DNA from: Candidatus Eiseniibacteriota bacterium
GTDB lineage: Bacteria > Joyebacterota > Joyebacteria > Joyebacterales > Joyebacteraceae
Length of the DNA: 34,458 nt
Assembly: GCA_030613615.1 (NCBI GenBank)
Contig: JAUWLR010000013.1
Span: forward strand, 1-34,458
Reading direction: 5' to 3'
Shown here one piece after another: positions 18,227 through 28,408 of this stretch. Below the pieces are notes generated by a model. It saw nothing but the letters and a program-made list of their open reading frames with translations, was not told the origin of the DNA and ran no database searches. Positions within the stretch are counted from its first letter, which is position 1, and each line of letters begins with the position of its first letter. Both the position numbers and the translations under genes were made by a program.

Positions 18227-19921
18227 CTATGTTCCGGGCGTCACTTTCACACCCGAAGCTGCCACGTCGAACCACTTCGTGGAGGAGTTCAGCGTCCACG
18301 CCAGAAGCCCTCTGACGTCGGGCACGTAGCTCGGAATCGCCACCAGCCCGCCGGGCATTCTGTCGGTGACGGTCGCAATTATCGTCGTCTCGCCGCGCTC
18401 AGTAGCCAGGGCCACATTGGACCCGGCCTCGACCCCGAGGCTCCTTGCGATCTCTTCACCAATCCAGATATCACAGTAGGGCGAGATCACCTTCGGGAAG
18501 CTCATTCTGCCCGTGATGGTCCCGTCCCAGCGGTGGAGCGGGTTGATGCCCTCGATGAGCACAACACCCTCTTCTGTCGACCGCCGGGCCAGCCGGTCGA
18601 GCTCGGCCTGGGTGTCGATGGGAAGTTCGGGGTGCTCGCCCGCTGAGCCGCCGTCGGTGGGCAGTGCCGCGTCCATCTCGCCGGCGATGTCCGACAGCAT
18701 CTCACCTGCCGATCGCGCGTCTCCCTGCGCGTCCGTTAGAGGTTCCATCGAGGTCGCGATGCCCAGCGACCCCGTGTAGGCCCCGGCCATCTCGGTCCAC
18801 ACGGCCTGCGGCAGCCCGACGTCGCTGTGCTTCGTCGTGTCATTCTCGAAGATGGCAGACGCCGCCAGGAGCTGGAGCCTCTCGAGATCCTCGGTGCTCA
18901 CCGCTCCCGGGTAGAGCTGGAGGATGTCCGGACCCAACACCAGAAGCCCCTTGATCTTGCCCGAGGTGACATCCGAGAGAACCTCTGCGACCGTTCTGGT
19001 GGAACCAATCGTGTTGTACGCGCCCAGCGCGTTGCCGCCGCGGAAGAGCGGAGCGTACTTCCCGCCGACCTTCTGGGCGAGAAGAGCCGCCAGTTGCCCG
19101 ATCAAAAAGCCCGCCGTGGAGTCGCCGAGTCTCGAGCTCACCATCACGACCACCTTGTCGTGCTCCTTGAGCCCCTGGGCGATGGCCGTGAGCTCGCTGG
19201 TCGCAAGACCGCCGGCGGCGGCCGCGGCCTCGAGCTCCACGCGCGGCGCCCCCTGAGCGTTCATGGCGGCGAGAAGACCCGCGAGGACCAGCGGTTCGGC
19301 GTCGGGACGGACAACGATGTGGCGGTCAGCGAACCAATCGGTGTTGCTGCGGTAGGGATTGAGCGTGTAGATCCTGTTCGTCCTGCTCTTGTAGCGTGAC
19401 TCGATGATGCGCTTCGCGACGCTGGGGTGGCCCCAGAAGATGTCGCCCACCAGCACGAAGCAGTCGGCGTCGTCGAGGTCCGACGGCGTCGCGTCACCCC
19501 CGCCTCCTCCCTTGAGGAGCGGATAGTCGTTCCCGTCGTACGCAACGGCGATGTTACCAGTGCCGAGCGTGCCGGCGGCGAACGCGGCGGCCGCGGCGTA
19601 GTCCTCGTTGGAGAGTTCGGTGCCCAAGATCAGGCCCAGCGCGTCACCGCCGTCGGCCTCCTTGATCTCCTTGAGCTTCCCCGCGACCTTGGTCACCCCC
19701 GACATCCACGGAACTCTCCGCCTGTTGACCGTAGTCGCAAGATTGCGCCTGGGATGGATAAGGAGCTCCAGATTGTAGTGCCCCCGGGTGCACAGCGACC
19801 CGAGATTGTGCGGGGCCTCGGTGTCCAGGTCAATTCTGACGGGCACTCCCGCGTCCATCTCCATCGCGAAGCCGCATTGGAAGGAGCAGAAGAGACAAGA
19901 CGCCTTTTTGGTCTCTGGCAT
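18227..19921 (-). CDS. Molybdopterin-oxidoreductase-fold protein (NuoG/FdhF-like, probably non-catalytic)
   Basis: The product has 564 residues, shorter than formate dehydrogenases (about 700 or more). The N-terminus has the [4Fe-4S] site CxxCxxxC...C (Cys9, 12, 16, 44; CLFCSFQC and CTRG). Molybdopterin-fold stretches follow (ADCFVLVGDIFWGHP, NRIYTLNPYRS, HIVVRPDAEPLVLAGLLAAM). No Cys or Sec is present at the point where formate dehydrogenases carry their Mo ligand; the corresponding stretch reads AYDGNDYPLLKGGGGGD. A C-terminal aspartate-decarboxylase-like part is present (SLGVEAGSNVALATERGE). I therefore see it as NuoG- or FwdB-like scaffold or electron-relay protein rather than a formate dehydrogenase. 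ATG 19921 has AGAGG upstream. Confidence 0.75.
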   Translation of the reverse strand: MPETKKASCLFCSFQCGFAMEMDAGVPVRIDLDTEAPHNLGSLCTRGHYNLELLIHPRRNLATTVNRRRVPWMSGVTKVAGKLKEIKEADGGDALGLILGTELSNEDYAAAAAFAAGTLGTGNIAVAYDGNDYPLLKGGGGGDATPSDLDDADCFVLVGDIFWGHPSVAKRIIESRYKSRTNRIYTLNPYRSNTDWFADRHIVVRPDAEPLVLAGLLAAMNAQGAPRVELEAAAAAGGLATSELTAIAQGLKEHDKVVVMVSSRLGDSTAGFLIGQLAALLAQKVGGKYAPLFRGGNALGAYNTIGSTRTVAEVLSDVTSGKIKGLLVLGPDILQLYPGAVSTEDLERLQLLAASAIFENDTTKHSDVGLPQAVWTEMAGAYTGSLGIATSMEPLTDAQGDARSAGEMLSDIAGEMDAALPTDGGSAGEHPELPIDTQAELDRLARRSTEEGVVLIEGINPLHRWDGTITGRMSFPKVISPYCDIWIGEEIARSLGVEAGSNVALATERGETTIIATVTDRMPGGLVAIPSYVPDVRGLLAWTLNSSTKWFDVAASGVKVTPGT

Positions 19922-19948
19922 TTCGTTTAACCTCTCAAACGTGAACAG

Positions 19949-20794
19949 CTAGAACGGATCATCGAACTCAGCGATCTGCGCCGCCGTCATGACGGGTCCG
20001 TCTTTGCAGATGTAGAACTCACCCATCATGCAGTGCCCGCACTTGCCGAGCCCGCAGCTCATGTTGCGCTCCATCGAATGGTAGATGTTCTCCGGCTTGA
20101 ACCCCTTGTCGAGCAGTGCGGCATTGACGAACTTGAGCATGATCGGCGGACCACAGACGCACGCCACCGCCGTCTCTGGATTGAATGGCAATTTCTCGAC
20201 GTCGACGGTCGTCAGAAGCGGCAGGTCGTCGAGCAAAACGGTGACGACGCCGACCGTTCCCTTCCAGTCGGGGTGTGGCTCGTCGATGGTCTGCAGCACC
20301 TCGGTGTTCTTCACCTTGGCCCACTCCGGAAGGAGGTTCTTGTAGATGATGTCCTCCGGTGTCCGCGCGCCGTAGCGAATGGATATCTTCTTGTACTTGT
20401 CCACGTCATCAAAGAGCGCCAGAATGAGCGACCTGAGCGGGGCCAGCCCGACGCCGCCCCCCATGATGAGGATCTCCTTGCCCTCGAAGTCGGCGAGATT
20501 GTAACCGTTGCCGTAGGGTCCTCTGATCCCAACCGTGTCGCCCACCTTCATCTTCGTCAGGGCCTCTGTCACCGTCCCGACCGCCATGATGGTGATTTCC
20601 ATCGTCCCGGTAACGTTCGGGTTGGAGGACGGTGTGAATGGAGCCTCCCCGACACCGGGCACCGTCAGCTCGACGAACTGGCCGGCCTCGAAGCTGATGG
20701 GCTCCTTCGGTCGGAAGCGGTACGTCGTGATGTTCGGCGTCTCCGACTTGATGTCCTCGATCACACTTTCGATTGGCCTATAGAGATTCTTCAT
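19949..20794 (-). CDS. HydG-like FAD/NAD(P) and [2Fe-2S] subunit
   Basis: This 281-residue protein belongs to the ferredoxin-NAD(P)+ reductase-like family of sulfhydrogenase gamma subunits (HydG) and anaerobic sulfite reductase B. It has the FAD-binding region (FEAGQFVELTVPGVGEAPF, RGPYGNGY 91-98), the nucleotide-binding GGGVG (112-116) and CGPP (214-217), and a C-terminal [2Fe-2S] site with Cys247, 252, 255 and 263. It should oxidise or reduce NAD(P)H and exchange electrons with the HydB-like partner. ATG 20794 overlaps that gene's stop (ATGA), so the two are coupled and likely form a dimer. This is not the maturase also called HydG. Confidence 0.88.
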   Translation of the reverse strand: MKNLYRPIESVIEDIKSETPNITTYRFRPKEPISFEAGQFVELTVPGVGEAPFTPSSNPNVTGTMEITIMAVGTVTEALTKMKVGDTVGIRGPYGNGYNLADFEGKEILIMGGGVGLAPLRSLILALFDDVDKYKKISIRYGARTPEDIIYKNLLPEWAKVKNTEVLQTIDEPHPDWKGTVGVVTVLLDDLPLLTTVDVEKLPFNPETAVACVCGPPIMLKFVNAALLDKGFKPENIYHSMERNMSCGLGKCGHCMMGEFYICKDGPVMTAAQIAEFDDPF

Positions 20795-21858
20795 GCCTTC
20801 GCCTTCTCCGTGACCACGTGCTTGATGGCTTCCCTCATGTCGATCCTGCCCATGCAGGCATCGATGCACCTGCCGCAGCCGGTGCATGTCACGAGGCCGT
20901 ACCTGTCGCGTGAGTACTCAAATTTGCAGCGCAGCCTGTTCTCGAGTCGCTGCGCGAGCGCGGGTCGAGAGTTGCCCCCGCCTCCCGTGCGTGCGTACCC
21001 GATGGACAAACACGTGTCCCAGTTCCGGCTCCGCTCGTATCCGCCCTTCGCCCGCTGGTCCACGAGAAGGAAGCACGTGCACGTCGGGCACACACGATTG
21101 CACGCCCCGCAGCCGACGCAGTCCTGCGTCACGTACGCCCACGCGTCTTCCGACGAGGCGAGGTCGCGCTTGTCATACGGCTGGTCTACCGCGAACTGCG
21201 CGTTCTGCCGGTCGACCGCCTCGGTCACCAACGCGCGGTTCTTGTCGCGCTCGGACTTGTGCTCCTGCGTCACCTCTCTCACCAGGTCGTCCGAACCGGC
21301 GAGCAGACCTTCCCCACGCTCAGACCCGACGGCCACAATGCACCCCGAGCCCAGCGGCGAGAGGTTGAGGTCAAACCCCTCCTCCACGAACGGCTTACCA
21401 CCTACGGCGGTGCAGAAGCAGGTCTCCTTCGCTGCCGTACAGTCAATCGAGACGACGTACGTGTTCTCCCGCTTCTCTATGATGAAGGGATCGTCGTGCT
21501 CCTCGGTGAAATGCTTGGTGCTCCAGTAGACCTTGTCGAACTTGGCCAAGCCGCGGACATCGCACCCGCGCGGACCGACGACGACCGTGGAGGGGGCCTC
21601 CACGTTGGCCTCAGCGTCGCTGCTGGGGTAGTTGGCCACGACCTCGCGTGGGTAGAAGACGAACGCCTTGGCCGAATGCGCCGGGGCCGCTCCGTGGAGC
21701 TGCATCGTCTCTGGCACGGCGTCCTTGACGAGATCGTAGTCCGGCGTCTCCTCGTTGTTCATGATGTCGAACGTGACCGGCACGTAGACCCGGTGGTCCT
21801 TCGCCCATCTCCCTATCAGCTTCAGGAGATTCTCGCTTCCAATGAAGCCCTCTTTCAT
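20791..21858 (-). CDS. HydB-like iron-sulfur subunit (sulfhydrogenase beta / AsrA family)
   Basis: The product has 355 residues. The N-terminal part has the family motif GPRGCDVRGLAKFDKVYW. The C-terminal third has two [4Fe-4S] motifs, CVGCGACNRVCPTC and CTGCGRCIDAC. In the sulfhydrogenase this subunit carries electrons between the flavin subunit (HydG) and the hydrogenase. ATG 21858 was chosen because related proteins begin just before ENLLKLIGRW; AAGGGG lies ten bases upstream. A GTG at 21975 would add 39 residues that do not look like the family. It is the first gene of the hydrogenase run, behind a promoter near 22150. Confidence 0.82.
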   Translation of the reverse strand: MKEGFIGSENLLKLIGRWAKDHRVYVPVTFDIMNNEETPDYDLVKDAVPETMQLHGAAPAHSAKAFVFYPREVVANYPSSDAEANVEAPSTVVVGPRGCDVRGLAKFDKVYWSTKHFTEEHDDPFIIEKRENTYVVSIDCTAAKETCFCTAVGGKPFVEEGFDLNLSPLGSGCIVAVGSERGEGLLAGSDDLVREVTQEHKSERDKNRALVTEAVDRQNAQFAVDQPYDKRDLASSEDAWAYVTQDCVGCGACNRVCPTCTCFLLVDQRAKGGYERSRNWDTCLSIGYARTGGGGNSRPALAQRLENRLRCKFEYSRDRYGLVTCTGCGRCIDACMGRIDMREAIKHVVTEKAKA

Positions 21859-22089
21859 CCTGGCCGGGCCCCTTGCTTGGAATGGTGTGTCGGACTTCTC
21901 CTGGAAACCGGTGGGCGCAACTCCGAGAGTTCTCGGACGGTCACCGCCCATGTTCACATAGAAACCCCGCGCCACTTCCTTCTATGCGAAAGTGATCCCG
22001 GGGTCGCTCTATGGCCGCGCTACGGTTGTGATGATCCTGCTCTGGGCCTACAAGTAACACTCAGCCCTTCCACTGATTGTCGCTCGCGG

Positions 22090-22265: not shown

Positions 22266-23225
22266 CTATCGGTCGCGTTGCGACAGGAACCTCAGGTTGA
22301 GTCGCTCTCCGGACTCCGCATCGACTACGTACTTCCTTACTTTCGACAGCACTTCTTCCATCACTTCGAGGTACAGGCGCTGGCGGGCTGCCGCCGGGTT
22401 CTTCCAGTACTCGACGACGGTAGCTCTGAAGCGATGCGCCTCGCCCTCGGCGGTCTTGGCTTTCTCTGTCCGGTATCCCTCCGCCGCGGTGATCAGTCGC
22501 TGCGCCTCGCCGCGCGCCATGGGCACGACGCGGTTCGCGTAGCCGTTCGCCTCCTGGATGATGCGGCTTCTGTCCTCCCTCGCGCTCGCGACATCGCGGA
22601 AGGCGTCCGCCACTTCACGTGGAGGATTGACTTCCTGCAGGTGGGCGGCCACGATCTCCATGCCGACGCCGTAGGAGTCCAGCACGTCCTGCGCGCGGTT
22701 CTTCACGGCGGTTGCCACCTCGATCTTCGCCGTTGTCAGGAGCTCATCGACGCCCAGTGCGGCCACTTTCTCGGTGAGAACCGACTCCCCCACCTTCTTG
22801 ATCAGCCAGTGCGGTTCTTCGGCCGCATAGAGGAAGCGCGCCGGGTCCTTGACAACATACTGGACCAAGAGCTGCATCTCGATTATGTTCTCGTCCCCGG
22901 TGACGAACTGGGTCTCTCGCGGTTCGGGCGTGAGTCCGCGGAGCTGGTCGATGATCTTGTATCCGATGCTCATCCGCTTGATCGCTGTGACCTGTGGCCT
23001 GGCAACCGAGTCGACCGGCCAGGGGATGCGGTAGTGGATGCCCGGCTGAATGTCCGCCGCTACGACCCTGCCGAGTCTCCTGACCACACCACGCTCGTCG
23101 GGCTGGACGACATATATGCCCGACAGTAAATACATGGCGACGGCGACCAGCGCGATCAACCGCGCCAGCTTCCAGACCTTCGGGAGTCCGGCGGACATGT
23201 CGGACCTGACCGTTGTCTCCGCCAC
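22266..23225 (-). CDS. HflK-like SPFH/band-7 membrane protein
   Basis: The product has 319 residues. One N-terminal membrane helix (LIALVAVAMYLLSGIYVV) is followed by an SPFH domain (VQPDERGVVRRLGRVVAADI, then QPGIHYRIPWP) and a charged helical region (AFRDVASAREDRSRIIQEAN, AEGYRTEKAKTAEGEAHRF). This is the HflK layout: a single membrane anchor with the SPFH domain outside the cytoplasm, which in E. coli cages FtsH together with HflC. GTG 23225 is preferred because GGAAGGGG lies eight bases upstream; TTG 23231 is also possible. It directly follows the HflC-like gene. Its C-terminal half closely resembles that of the CDF-SPFH fusion, so the two look like paralogues. FtsH itself is not in the window. 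Confidence 0.85.
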   Translation of the reverse strand: MAETTVRSDMSAGLPKVWKLARLIALVAVAMYLLSGIYVVQPDERGVVRRLGRVVAADIQPGIHYRIPWPVDSVARPQVTAIKRMSIGYKIIDQLRGLTPEPRETQFVTGDENIIEMQLLVQYVVKDPARFLYAAEEPHWLIKKVGESVLTEKVAALGVDELLTTAKIEVATAVKNRAQDVLDSYGVGMEIVAAHLQEVNPPREVADAFRDVASAREDRSRIIQEANGYANRVVPMARGEAQRLITAAEGYRTEKAKTAEGEAHRFRATVVEYWKNPAAARQRLYLEVMEEVLSKVRKYVVDAESGERLNLRFLSQRDR

Positions 23226-23245
23226 GTTCAATTCCCCTTCCTGTC

Positions 23246-24127
23246 TCAGTTCCCCTTCTTATCGAGGAGCTTGAGGAGGTCCGAATCCGACGACAGCACA
23301 ATCGTGGTCTTGTCGTCGAGGAACTTTCTGTAGGACTCGAGTGTCCTCACGAATTCGTAGAATCCCGGGTCCGTGTTGTACGCGTCGCCGTATATGCGCA
23401 TCGCCTCCGCGTCGCCCTCGCCGCGGACCTTCTCGGCCTCCATGTAGGCGGCAGCTAGGATCTCCTGCCGCTCCTTGTCAGCCTCGGCGCGGATCTTGAT
23501 GGCCTCTTCCTCTCCCTCTGAGCGGTACTTCTTCGCCGTCCGCTCTCGCTCGGCTCGCATGCGATCGAAGACGCTCTGCTTGTTCTGCTCCGGGAAGGCG
23601 AGACGTTTCATCCGCAAGTCGACCACCTCGATACCGAAGCTCGACTCGGCCGTTGTCCTGCACCCCAGCGCCACTCTCTCCATTATCTCATCGACCTTCA
23701 TCAAGTCGGGGTCGACCGATATCAGCGCGTGGAGCGGATACTGGCCAAGCGCGGCCCCCAGCTCAGACGCGACGATGTCCGCCATCCGCACCTCCGCCCC
23801 CTCCCGGTCATTCACCGTCTCGAGGAACTTCTCCGGATCCGCGATCCGCCAGGCGACAAACGCATCGACAACGATGTTCTTCTTGTCGTTCGTCAGGAAC
23901 TCCGTCGCCTTGGGGTCGTAGACCAGAAGCCGCTTATCGAAGAGCGTGATGGACTGGATCGGCTGCGGTAGTTTCCAGTTGAGGCCGGCGGTCTCGATCA
24001 CTCTCACCGGGCGCCCGAACTGAGTCACGATCACCGTGCTCGTCTCGTCGACCACGAACATCGCGGTTCTGAGAATAAGCAGGGCGATGATCGTGATCGC
24101 CGCCGTGTAGTATCTTCTTCGTGTCAC
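23246..24127 (-). CDS. hflC: HflC-like SPFH/band-7 membrane protein
   Basis: A 293-residue protein. The N-terminus is a basic stretch (VTRRRYY) and one membrane helix (TAAITIIALLILRTAMFVV), followed by the HflC-type SPFH domain (VTQFGRPVRVIETAGLNWKL, PQPIQSITLFDKRLL, DAFVAWRIADPEKF) and the helical region (MRAERERTAKKYRSEGEEEA). HflC partners HflK to regulate the FtsH protease. GTG 24127 was chosen over GTG 24157 because GGGAGGG lies six bases upstream and the family starts close to the membrane helix. It lies 90 bases after the CDF-SPFH fusion gene and about 20 before the HflK-like gene. Confidence 0.87.
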   Translation of the reverse strand: MTRRRYYTAAITIIALLILRTAMFVVDETSTVIVTQFGRPVRVIETAGLNWKLPQPIQSITLFDKRLLVYDPKATEFLTNDKKNIVVDAFVAWRIADPEKFLETVNDREGAEVRMADIVASELGAALGQYPLHALISVDPDLMKVDEIMERVALGCRTTAESSFGIEVVDLRMKRLAFPEQNKQSVFDRMRAERERTAKKYRSEGEEEAIKIRAEADKERQEILAAAYMEAEKVRGEGDAEAMRIYGDAYNTDPGFYEFVRTLESYRKFLDDKTTIVLSSDSDLLKLLDKKGN

Positions 24128-24217
24128 CTGTCCCTCCCGGGTCGATTCTCCGACCACCGTGTCACGGGCTCGCGTCCCGTCGCCGCGCCACCGGCCCTCC
24201 GCGCGGCCTCGCCGCGC

Positions 24218-25945
24218 CTAGTCTTGCAGAGCCGCGTCTGACGAAAGCGCCTTGTCGAACACGCGGATGTCGTAGCCCTCGAGATCGATGTCCGCGCTCA
24301 CGATATACTTCTCGATGCCGGCCAGGATACTCTCCATGGTCTCGAGGTAGAGGCGCGTCTCGGTGACCCTTTTCGAGCCCCTGTAGTGCCGCGCCATTTC
24401 CTTGAATCGCTCGGAGTCGCCGCGCGCCCGGTCGATTCTGTCGGACCTGTATCCCTCGGCCTCAAGCATCAGGCGCCCGGCGTCACCGCGCGCCTTCGGA
24501 ATGGTCTCGTCCATGTAGCCGAGCGCCTCATTCATGATCCGGCTCTTGTCCTCTCTGGCGCTGGCGACGTCTCTGAATGCCGGAACCACCTCGAGGGGCG
24601 GGTGCACGTCCTGAAGTCTGACGCCCGTGATCTCCACGCCCGCCTCGACCGCGTCAAGAAGCCCCTGTGTCACAGTGAGGATCAGCTCCTCGAAAACGTC
24701 CCGTTGCACGGTGATTACGTCTTCGAGGGCAAGCCGGCCCGCGATATTCGTCATCACGGACTCGCCCACAGATCTGATGAGGTCCTCCGCTCTCGCGACC
24801 TTGAAGAGGTACGCCTTGGGATCGCTCACGCGATAAAAGAAGACGACGTTCATGTCCACGACGTTCTCGTCGCCCGTCAGTCTCAGCGCTTCCTCCGGGA
24901 GCTTCTCGTAGGTCCCGGCGGCGTGACGGCTTTCCCATAGCGTCGCGTAGAACTCGGCGGCGACCGCGTTGATCGAGCGCGCCACTTCGCGCGTTCGGAA
25001 GCCTATCTCCAGACGTCTCACCTTCGGTACTTCCACGCGCACGACTCTGTCCATCGGCCACGGCGCCTTGAGGTGTACGCCCGGCGTCATGATCTCCTCC
25101 AGCGCCCTGCCCCATCTCGTGACGACGCCCACACGACCCGGGCCAACGAACGACACGCTCGTGAGCGCCCACACAACAAGCAGAAGAACGGCCACGGACC
25201 ACGCGCACCGCCGCCGCCACTCGGGGCGCCCGATCATGCTCCGCGCGCGCACAAAGAACGCGCGAACACCCAGTCGGTCCAACGCGGTCCCAAGCACCAG
25301 AGCAGGGCGTGTCTGCATGATCTCCGAGAGTGACTCCGCCTGTGTCGTCGTGCCCTTGCGGAGCCCTCGCATCGCCGCTGCCCCGATGACGATGGCCGAC
25401 TCCAGTACGAAGAGAGCAACAACGACGGCCGCGATACGGTCGAGTTCGATGCCGATCGCGTGGCCCATGAGACCCACAACGACGGCGGCGGTTGTCAGGG
25501 TGTCCATGCGGGAGTGATATCCGTCGGCGACCAGGCTGAGGCTGCCCGTCTCGCGTCCGACGTGCAGTTTGTACTGAGCGGCGTAGTACGAAACAAGCGC
25601 GGCGACGAGACTGCCGCCTATCGCCAGCGGGAGATTCGTGATGGGTGCGCCGCCGACAACAGAGACCTTGCGAAAGATACCGACCGCGGCCCAGAGGATC
25701 AGGCCGCTGATAATGAGACCGACGATGTTCTCGACGACGGCCAGATTGACCCGGCCCTCCCGGCGCGAGATGCGCGCTCCGGTCCACACCAGAGCTGAGG
25801 CCACGACATCGGACCCCGAGTGCCAGGCGTCTGCGACAAGCGCCAGACTTCCGGACAGCACCGCGAGAAACAGTTTGAGGAAGACGAGCCCGATGTTAAT
25901 CAGGACCGAGACCAGCGCCGTGCGCTCGACTCGACTCACGCTCAC
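24218..25945 (-). CDS. Fusion of a cation diffusion facilitator to an HflK-like SPFH domain
   Basis: The product has 575 residues. Residues about 8-200 are a six-helix CDF transporter with both metal-site motifs, DAWHSGSD (39-46) and DGYHSRMD (141-148), the HxxxD pairs that bind Zn/Fe/Mn in this family. The usual cytoplasmic CDF C-terminal domain is missing. A linker of about 45 residues is followed by a seventh helix (CAWSVAVLLLVVWALTSVSF) and an HflK-like SPFH domain (VGPGRVGVVTRWGR, FRDVASAREDKSRIMNEALG, AEGYRSDRIDRARGDSERF). Six helices return the chain to the cytoplasm and the seventh places the SPFH domain outside, as in HflK, so the fusion is topologically sound. GTG 25945 has AGGAGG five bases upstream. 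The frame is unbroken across the junction. It starts 36 bases after gyrA. Confidence 0.88.
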   Translation of the reverse strand: MSVSRVERTALVSVLINIGLVFLKLFLAVLSGSLALVADAWHSGSDVVASALVWTGARISRREGRVNLAVVENIVGLIISGLILWAAVGIFRKVSVVGGAPITNLPLAIGGSLVAALVSYYAAQYKLHVGRETGSLSLVADGYHSRMDTLTTAAVVVGLMGHAIGIELDRIAAVVVALFVLESAIVIGAAAMRGLRKGTTTQAESLSEIMQTRPALVLGTALDRLGVRAFFVRARSMIGRPEWRRRCAWSVAVLLLVVWALTSVSFVGPGRVGVVTRWGRALEEIMTPGVHLKAPWPMDRVVRVEVPKVRRLEIGFRTREVARSINAVAAEFYATLWESRHAAGTYEKLPEEALRLTGDENVVDMNVVFFYRVSDPKAYLFKVARAEDLIRSVGESVMTNIAGRLALEDVITVQRDVFEELILTVTQGLLDAVEAGVEITGVRLQDVHPPLEVVPAFRDVASAREDKSRIMNEALGYMDETIPKARGDAGRLMLEAEGYRSDRIDRARGDSERFKEMARHYRGSKRVTETRLYLETMESILAGIEKYIVSADIDLEGYDIRVFDKALSSDAALQD

Positions 25946-25981
25946 GTTCACCTCCTGATGGGGCACCGCGCCCCGGCCAAG

Positions 25982-28408
25982 CTACTCCTCGCTCGCCACA
26001 CAGGCGACGTCGACCACCCTGTCGCCCTTGCCGAGCTTGATGATCCTGACGCCCTGAGTGTTGCGCCCGATGCGTGCTATGCCCTTGACGGGAAGGCGGA
26101 TCATGACTCCCTTCGCGGTCATTATCATGACCTCATCCGGCTCGTTGACGATCTTGACGGCGACGACCTTCCCGTTCCTCTTGTTCGCCTTTATCGAGAT
26201 GACGCCCTTGCCGCCGCGCCTGATGATGCGGTAGTCGGAAATGCTGGTCCGCTTGCCATACCCGTTCTCGGTCACAGACAGAACGGTCCCCTGCTCACCG
26301 ACGGCGACCACCATGCCGACGACTTCGTCGCCCTTCTCTAGGAGCGTGCCGCGCACGCCGCGTGCCGTCCGCCCCATTTCGCGCACATCGCTCTCGCGGA
26401 AGCGAATCGCCTTGCCCAGCCTCTTCGCGAGAACGATGTCATGGTTGCCGTCGGTCACCGCAGCGTCGATGAGTTCGTCGCCCTTATCGATATTGATGGC
26501 GCGGATGCCCCCGCGTCTCGGGTGAGAGTAGGCCGACAACCTCGTCTTTTTGACTACGCCTTTTCTCGTCGCCATCACCACGAAGTGCTCATCGTCGAAG
26601 TCGCGGGCCGTGATGAACGTCGCTACGGAGTCATCCTTGTTCACCTGCAGCAGGTTGACGATCGCCTTCCCCTTGGCCGCTCGACCGGCCTGCGGAATCT
26701 CGTGCACCCTGAGCCAATGGCAATGGCCCCTCGGCGTAAAGAAGAGGATGTAGTCGTGAGTCGAGGCGATCAGCATGTGCTCGACGAAGTCGTCCTCTTT
26801 GGTGCCCATGCCGGTGATACCCTTGCCGCCGCGCCGTTGCCTGCGGTAGGTCCCGACCGGAAGCCGTTTGATGTAGCCGGTGTGTGAGATTGAGATCGCC
26901 ATGTCCTCCTCGGCGATCAGATCCTCGATCGCGAAGTCGGTCGTCGCCTCGACGATCTCTGTGCGCCTCTCGTTGCCGTACGCCTCGGCCGCGGTCGTGA
27001 TGTCTTCCTTTATGATGGCAAGCACCTTCGCCCTGCTCTCGAGAATACCCTTGAGCGTGGCGATGAGCTTGATGATCTCCTTGTACTCGTCCTCGATCTT
27101 CTTCCGCTGGAGCCCCGTCAGGCGCTGAAGTCTCATGTCGAGAATCGCCTGGGCCTGTATCTCCGAGAACTTGAATGTCTTCATCAGCTGCGCGCGTGCG
27201 TGCTCGACGTCCTTCGACTTCTTGATGATCTGAACAATCTCGTCAATATGGTCGAGCGCCTTCTTAAGTCCCTCGAGGATGTGCGCCCGCGCCTCCGCCT
27301 TGGCCAGCTCGAACCTGGTCCGCCTGACGATGACTTCCTCGCGGTGGGCAACGTAGTGGCTCAACATCTCCTTCAGCGTCATCACCTTCGGAATGTTGTC
27401 GGTGAGCGCCAGGAGGATCGTCCCGAACGTCGTCTGCATCTGCGTGCTCTTGTAGAGCTGGTTCAGAACAACGTTCGCCTGCGCATCGCGCTTCATGTCG
27501 ATCACGACCCTGATACCGTCGCGGTCGGACTCATCGCGGATGTCGCGTATCCCCGTGATCTTGCCCTCGCGGACGAGATTGGCGATGGCCTCGATAAGAC
27601 TGGACTTGTTCACCATGAACGGGATCTCGGTGATGATCACGCTCTCCGCGCCGTTCTGGTGGACCTCAATGTTGGCGCGCGCGCGCACGACGATGCGCCC
27701 GCGACCCGTCAGATACGCGTCCCGCACACCGGCTCGGCCGAAGATGATACCCCCCGTCGGGAAGTCCGGCCCGTGTACCATGCCGAGGAGTTTCTCGTCG
27801 GGGATGTCCGGGTCGTCGATAATCGCAATGATGGCCTCGGTGAGCTCCTCGAGGTTGTGGGGCGGAATGTTTGTCGCCATCCCGACCGCGATACCGGAAG
27901 CGCCGTTCATGAGGAGGTTCGGGAGCTTGGCGGGCAGCACCAGCGGCTCTTTGCGCGTGCCGTCGTAGTTCGGCACGAAGTCGACCGTCTCCTTCTTCAG
28001 GTCCTCGAGCAGGTCCTCCGCGATACGCGTCATGCGCGCTTCGGTGTATCGCTCGGCTGCCGCTCTGTCCCCGTCGATCGACCCGAAGTTGCCCTGCCCG
28101 TTCACCAGCGGGTGTCTCAGTGAGAAGTCCTGCGCCATGCGGACCATCGCGTCGTAGATGGCGACCGTCCCGTGCGGATGGTAGTTGCCGTTGACGTCGC
28201 CGCAAATCTTCGCTGACTTCCTGTAGGGCTTGTTGTGCGCCAACCCTAAGTCGTCCATCGCGACAAGGATGCGCCGTTGCACCGGCTTCAGGCCATCCCT
28301 GACGTCCGGCAGCGCCCTCGACACGATCACGCTCATCGCGTAATCGATGTAGGACTTCTTCATCTCGTCTTCGATGACTACGGGAACGATTCTCTCGGTC
28401 GTTGGCAT
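25982..28408 (-). CDS. gyrA: DNA gyrase subunit A
   Basis: This 808-residue protein breaks and rejoins DNA during negative supercoiling. Catalytic Tyr121 sits in AAAERYTEAR. The GyrA box QRRGGKG (524-530), which separates gyrase from topoisomerase IV, is present and is followed by the C-terminal beta-pinwheel repeats. The quinolone-contact region reads HPHGTVAIYD (77-86) where E. coli has HPHGDSAVYD, so the positions of Asp82 and Ser83 are Thr and Val. ATG 28408 lies 16 bases after the gyrB stop. Its length is typical of the family, and there is no C-terminal acidic tail beyond VASEE. Confidence 0.97.
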   Translation of the reverse strand: MPTTERIVPVVIEDEMKKSYIDYAMSVIVSRALPDVRDGLKPVQRRILVAMDDLGLAHNKPYRKSAKICGDVNGNYHPHGTVAIYDAMVRMAQDFSLRHPLVNGQGNFGSIDGDRAAAERYTEARMTRIAEDLLEDLKKETVDFVPNYDGTRKEPLVLPAKLPNLLMNGASGIAVGMATNIPPHNLEELTEAIIAIIDDPDIPDEKLLGMVHGPDFPTGGIIFGRAGVRDAYLTGRGRIVVRARANIEVHQNGAESVIITEIPFMVNKSSLIEAIANLVREGKITGIRDIRDESDRDGIRVVIDMKRDAQANVVLNQLYKSTQMQTTFGTILLALTDNIPKVMTLKEMLSHYVAHREEVIVRRTRFELAKAEARAHILEGLKKALDHIDEIVQIIKKSKDVEHARAQLMKTFKFSEIQAQAILDMRLQRLTGLQRKKIEDEYKEIIKLIATLKGILESRAKVLAIIKEDITTAAEAYGNERRTEIVEATTDFAIEDLIAEEDMAISISHTGYIKRLPVGTYRRQRRGGKGITGMGTKEDDFVEHMLIASTHDYILFFTPRGHCHWLRVHEIPQAGRAAKGKAIVNLLQVNKDDSVATFITARDFDDEHFVVMATRKGVVKKTRLSAYSHPRRGGIRAINIDKGDELIDAAVTDGNHDIVLAKRLGKAIRFRESDVREMGRTARGVRGTLLEKGDEVVGMVVAVGEQGTVLSVTENGYGKRTSISDYRIIRRGGKGVISIKANKRNGKVVAVKIVNEPDEVMIMTAKGVMIRLPVKGIARIGRNTQGVRIIKLGKGDRVVDVACVASEE

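Follow-up and report, generated by a model that had tools for sequence, protein, structure and literature searches.

A CDF-type metal exporter fused to an HflK-type SPFH domain, in a cassette with HflC and a second HflK

Results

The fusion gene and its partners

The window, the whole stretch of 34,458 nucleotides analysed here, carries on its minus strand a gene for a 575-residue CDF-HflK fusion (24218..25945), recognised by its open reading frame (ORF), an SD sequence (AGGAGG), Pfam and NCBIfam matches and conservation within the phylum. It is a single uninterrupted frame with its stop side at 24218, and its longest possible start is an in-frame GTG at 25966. A further GTG, at 25945, lies five bases past the AGGAGG, and conservation among relatives begins at about this point. 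Because the spacing and the onset of conservation both fit better there, GTG 25945, the start given in an earlier note on this DNA, is the likely start and GTG 25966 a possible one. Two Pfam domains, Cation_efflux (PF01545, E=3.1e-25) and Band_7 (E=1.3e-19), exceeded their curated cut-offs by a wide margin, and in NCBIfam the protein matched CDF (TIGR01297; 90.7 bits against a cut-off of 82.35) and hflK (TIGR01933; 216.1 bits against 159.4). The design that the earlier note had read from the letters, a six-helix cation diffusion facilitator (CDF) followed in one chain by a seventh helix and a complete HflK-type SPFH domain, is borne out by the ORF, by both sets of matches and by the structural model described below. 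The linker gave a higher dN/dS against genus mates than the two halves, whose values of 0.07-0.20 indicate purifying selection on each. No start codon residue is kept across relatives in the linker, and we dropped the idea that an internal translation start there yields free HflK.

The CDF transmembrane domain (residues 5-197; 25355..25933, minus strand) comprises six helices, as shown by the Cation_efflux and TIGR01297 matches, the model and Foldseek, where the N-terminal part of the model matched YiiP at 3.2-4.8 Å over about 195-205 columns. The D/H-xxx-D tetrahedral metal site that TM2 and TM5 form in CDFs is also present. Numbered from 25945, it consists of H42 and D46 in the HxxxD motif of TM2 (25808..25822, minus strand) and H144 and D148 in that of TM5 (25502..25516, minus strand). 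Each motif is kept in 25 of the 27 aligned CDF fusions, a few of which are near-duplicates, and all four site residues occur together in 24; the exceptions are loci L163 and L167, with one site residue altered in each, and the decayed L173. As an HD-HD site in CDFs is associated with Zn2+ selectivity (PMC6465983), the CDF half most likely transports Zn2+ and possibly other divalent metals.

The C-terminal domain of CDFs was not found in the fusion, in agreement with the earlier reading. It has no Pfam match there, and the linker between TM6 and TM7 is too short to hold one, with 42 residues here and 16-50 in relatives, compared to mostly 79-95 residues past TM6 in ordinary CDFs. This cytosolic dimerisation domain is typical of CDFs but is missing in some, and hence is not strictly defining. 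CDFs that lack it are reported to be numerous and of unclear function (PMC6465983). In a quick tree with SH-aLRT support only, as in all trees reported here, the 24 fused CDFs came out together (100), with the 61 ordinary CDFs outside their clade.

The linker that replaces this domain (25226..25354, minus strand), delimited by charge, dN/dS and length, is positively charged, loop 190-249 holding 12 K/R against 4 D/E. It leads into a seventh transmembrane helix (residues 241-261; 25163..25225, minus strand), seen in the hydropathy and as a helix in the model, which aligns with the lone TM helix of E. coli HflK. The HflK-type SPFH domain follows with its long helix (24323..25162, minus strand; Band_7, TIGR01933 and E. 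coli HflK matches), and E. coli HflK structures were its best match both by sequence and by fold. An AlphaFold2 model of the fusion monomer, built with 17 sequences and of moderate confidence (pLDDT 70, pTM 0.41), contains the six helices, the linker, the seventh helix and the SPFH fold. The charged linker would keep the C-terminus of the CDF part in the cytosol, so that the SPFH domain, one TM helix further on, is predicted to be periplasmic. This prediction, for which the positive-inside linker, TM7 and the model all speak, supports the earlier suggestion that the domain faces outside the cytoplasm. Ahead of the LTGDEN motif, an insertion in the SPFH domain carries W-x3-H-x4-Y (24902..24937, minus strand), which is found in most CDF fusions and in some of the P1B fusions described below (L208 among them) and is missing from the window's second HflK. 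In alignment A4, W337 is invariant and H341 and Y346 are nearly so; the stretch could contact metal or a partner.

The earlier note recognised the fusion itself but missed its place as the first gene of a three-gene cassette. At every intact locus examined the order is exporter-HflK, HflC and a second HflK, here called HflK'. In the window these partners are the HflC gene (23246..24157, minus strand; likely start GTG 24127; TIGR01932, 220.1 bits) and the HflK' gene (22266..23231, minus strand; TIGR01933, 234.7 bits). Cassette genes mostly overlap or lie within a few bases of one another; exceptions are L059 and the window, where HflC comes after a larger gap, of about 90 bases in the window. 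Directly upstream of the fusion is gyrA (25982..28408, minus strand), named by its sequence and by its place after gyrB. Downstream of the cassette (18227-21975, minus strand) are genes resembling AsrA/sulfhydrogenase beta, AsrB/sulfhydrogenase gamma and a formate-dehydrogenase-like molybdopterin protein, and this AsrA/AsrB-like block keeps its place in relatives.

Outside the window's phylum, the loci examined showed no recurrent neighbour besides the trio itself, and Pfam scans of 20 neighbours gave scattered metal genes only. The Aquibium cassette lies among genes for PCu(A)C, Nramp, a two-component pair, a heavy-metal P-type ATPase and SCO; the Thiothrix cassette (L063) is preceded by HupE/UreJ-type genes and that of L056 by FeoB. 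Because most cassettes have no adjacent metal genes, these three loci are anecdotes.

Occurrence of the fusion

The fusion is present in 17 of the 20 genomes of the window's phylum, in two of them in pieces at contig ends, and in these relatives it keeps the same frame without internal stops. MAGs named Candidatus Eisenbacteria or Candidatus Effluviviaceae are among the carriers; PMC11323493 describes the phylum Ca. Effluviviacota. Full-length fusions were also found in 12 of 366 sampled other bacterial genomes, from nine family-level groups, a diverse but small sample from which true frequencies cannot be read. Among the named carriers beyond the phylum are Thiothrix caldifontis DSM 21228, one Deltaproteobacteria MAG chromosome and Aquibium oceanicum B7, on whose complete plasmid the fusion is annotated just as HflK. 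A frameshift, or a mis-join of two adjacent genes, could in principle have produced such a frame, and the earlier note had named this as the way in which its reading could fail. We looked for either in relatives and found neither: the same single ORF recurs in many independent MAGs, in T. caldifontis DSM 21228 and on the complete A. oceanicum B7 plasmid. This refutes an artefact, to which we assign a negligible chance, and the fusion is real.

Some relatives record the decay or absence of the cassette. In genome G006 of the same phylum (L173/L269) a decayed copy of the fusion still lies beside gyrA with both CDF metal motifs gone, and this cassette is, as judged from its sequence, in decay or changed in use. 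The neighbouring SPFH genes of G006 have diverged. Two genomes of the same family, G008 and G017, lack the cassette: the AsrA-like gene comes straight after their gyrA, so the site is empty. At L064:7989-8838 two overlapping frames hold the start of a CDF and the end of an SPFH domain that is otherwise mostly gone, an apparent remnant of a CDF-HflK fusion. An HflK match in a 650-residue frame of G044 was rejected as a further fusion, because it is an ordinary HflK whose frame stays open upstream.

Exporters at the N-terminal slot

Searching with the fused SPFH part alone also returned long frames that differ in size from the CDF fusions. One group, at about 1000 residues, joins a P1B heavy-metal ATPase to HflK (L208, L257-L260); the example at L208:6494-9613 scored 616 bits with TIGR01525 and 198 bits with hflK, and these fusions retain the CPC and DKTGT catalytic motifs. 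In a second group, with about 700-830 residues, HflK is joined to a Cu/Zn efflux permease of the SO_0444 family (L246-L254). Five of these were tested; all score above the SO_0444 cut-off, and three above that of hflK too. Shewanella depends on SO_0444 to grow under zinc or copper stress (PMC3219624). Both kinds of fusion are likewise followed by HflC and HflK', which were not found after the SO_0444-HflK fusion in L248. By their family matches, then, three unrelated transporter families, alike only as metal exporters, share one N-terminal slot. Plasmid searches for P1B-HflK and SO_0444-HflK gave no record covering 80% of the query.

Different exporters also occur close together. Genome G289 has a CDF-HflK cassette (L171, C233), a P1B-HflK cassette (L208, C146) and a separate canonical HflK, and one family-level group includes both a CDF (L172, in G067) and an SO_0444 (L250, in G068) version. 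In some SO_0444-HflK cassettes (L246:2991-4989, also L247 and L249) an extra SPFH gene and a further gene, whose product is possibly exported, lie upstream.

Ancestry of the cassette proteins

A tree of 113 HflK sequences placed the canonical proteins in one clade and the fused HflK and HflK' outside it. The fused HflK has the Band_7 domain of the HflK type and does not group with canonical HflK. After the longest branches had been removed and the canonical set thinned, fused HflKs of all three exporter types formed one clade (98), with separate clades for HflK' (99) and canonical HflK (99). Cassette HflC was separated from ordinary HflC at 100. With fused HflK, HflK' and cassette HflC in clades of their own, the trio is a set of distinct paralogues, not HflKC that has suffered an accident. 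A separate canonical HflK is encoded in many carriers as well. A single CDF subclade inside the fused-HflK clade was not rejected (p-AU 0.578), so that the tree does not establish repeated replacement of the exporter within that clade.

Discussion

We propose that the cassette encodes a dedicated three-component SPFH complex (exporter-HflK, HflC and HflK') that has a metal exporter as its membrane anchor and exports under a dome, a reading to which we give a probability of roughly 0.6. The E. coli cage is built in the periplasm from HflK and HflC, each of which contributes one anchoring helix (PMC12005517, PMC13220708). In the cassette, the exporter domain would stand in for the short cytosolic N-terminus of HflK and so become the membrane anchor of one HflK, and the CDF part would move metal from cytosol to periplasm by proton exchange. 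The C-terminal domain is the usual pairing and sensing device of CDFs. The SPFH part, together with HflC and HflK', would build a periplasmic ring or dome that may cluster several exporters in one membrane patch and supply the pairing and regulation otherwise provided by the missing domain, with export occurring under or within the dome. The earlier note had placed metal export in an HflKC/FtsH quality-control assembly. The HflKC-like part of that proposal is strengthened because unrelated metal exporters fill the same slot; the part concerning FtsH is not.

Control linked to FtsH would mean that FtsH is bound in the cage, with the exporter tied to it either to let metal status adjust proteolysis or to have the exporter itself removed or spared by FtsH. 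In E. coli, FtsH is indeed bound by HflK/HflC, via HflK (PMC13220708). Three residues of E. coli HflK have been linked to FtsH binding: R141, E142 and R185. The residue matching R185 is Arg in the window protein, in all five P1B fusions and in seven of the nine SO_0444 fusions, but it is kept in only 9 of 23 CDF fusions; R141 and E142 vary even among canonical HflKs, so that only R185 is usefully comparable. The check for ftsH that the earlier note had proposed found the gene in 20 of the 23 genomes searched, which carries little weight since FtsH is near-universal in bacteria. With the separate canonical HflK of many of these genomes and the distinct clades of the cassette proteins also counting against it, we consider FtsH-linked control unlikely as the main function, and coupling of the cassette to FtsH possible. 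We are a little more sceptical of a delivery chamber, in which the metal moved beneath the dome would serve to load particular periplasmic metalloproteins, not to rid the cell of it. HflK-type SPFH domains do face the periplasm, and the metal-uptake or copper-assembly genes next to some members (Nramp, PCu(A)C and SCO; HupE/UreJ; FeoB) would suit it, but no recurrent metalloprotein partner lies next to the cassette.

The exporter domain might also bind metal as a sensor, or simply root the SPFH complex, without any transport. G006 keeps its fusion without the HxxxD sites, and the sites in L163 and L167 are altered, so transport is not always needed; the absence of the regulatory C-terminal domain also speaks for this reading. 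However, the four site residues are intact in nearly all aligned rows, the CDF half is under strong purifying selection and the P1B version keeps its catalytic motifs. A mere anchor would also leave three different exporters unexplained, and we judge this reading improbable. Export by a dedicated complex fits the data better, and would turn three unrelated metal exporters, wired covalently to one SPFH assembly, towards a single task. It suggests that metal exporters can be clustered and controlled from the periplasmic side by a scaffold, in place of a sensing domain in the cytosol.

The role of bacterial SPFH cages is an open question, and the fused exporters offer a clear and testable function for one of them; the members in Thiothrix caldifontis and on the Aquibium oceanicum plasmid make the cassette experimentally accessible. 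The parts belong to known families, and it is the composite and its modular exporter that appear new. The open-access full texts searched hold no description of metal exporter-HflK fusions, and a term search of a 2009 survey of prokaryotic SPFH proteins found no metal-exporter fusion. The cassette points to an undescribed coupling of metal export to membrane scaffolds. That it represents an undescribed class of membrane machine, a three-subunit SPFH cage of its own ancestry with an exchangeable CDF, P1B or SO_0444 anchor and export into or under a periplasmic dome, is a more tentative claim, which we place at slightly below even odds.

Among known systems, E. coli HflK/HflC (SPFH3; 7vhp, 7wi3, 9cz2) shares the SPFH domain, the single preceding TM helix and the HflK-HflC gene order, but has no transporter fusion, two genes where the cassette has three, and clades separate from those of the cassette. 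CDFs of the YiiP/FieF and ZnT types have the same six-helix fold and TM2/TM5 metal site; the fused CDF differs in lacking the cytosolic C-terminal domain, in having an SPFH domain and in forming its own clade. We know of no CDF without a C-terminal domain that has been described with an SPFH domain instead. The absence of that domain is itself shared with other CDFs (PMC6465983). The P1B-type ATPase and SO_0444 Cu/Zn permease families supply the other two exporter modules of the same slot, although their curated models contain no SPFH domain. Stomatin-aquaporin 1 (9zd2), which was among the Foldseek matches, likewise brings an SPFH protein together with a membrane transport protein, but it is human, is not fused and involves another SPFH subfamily.
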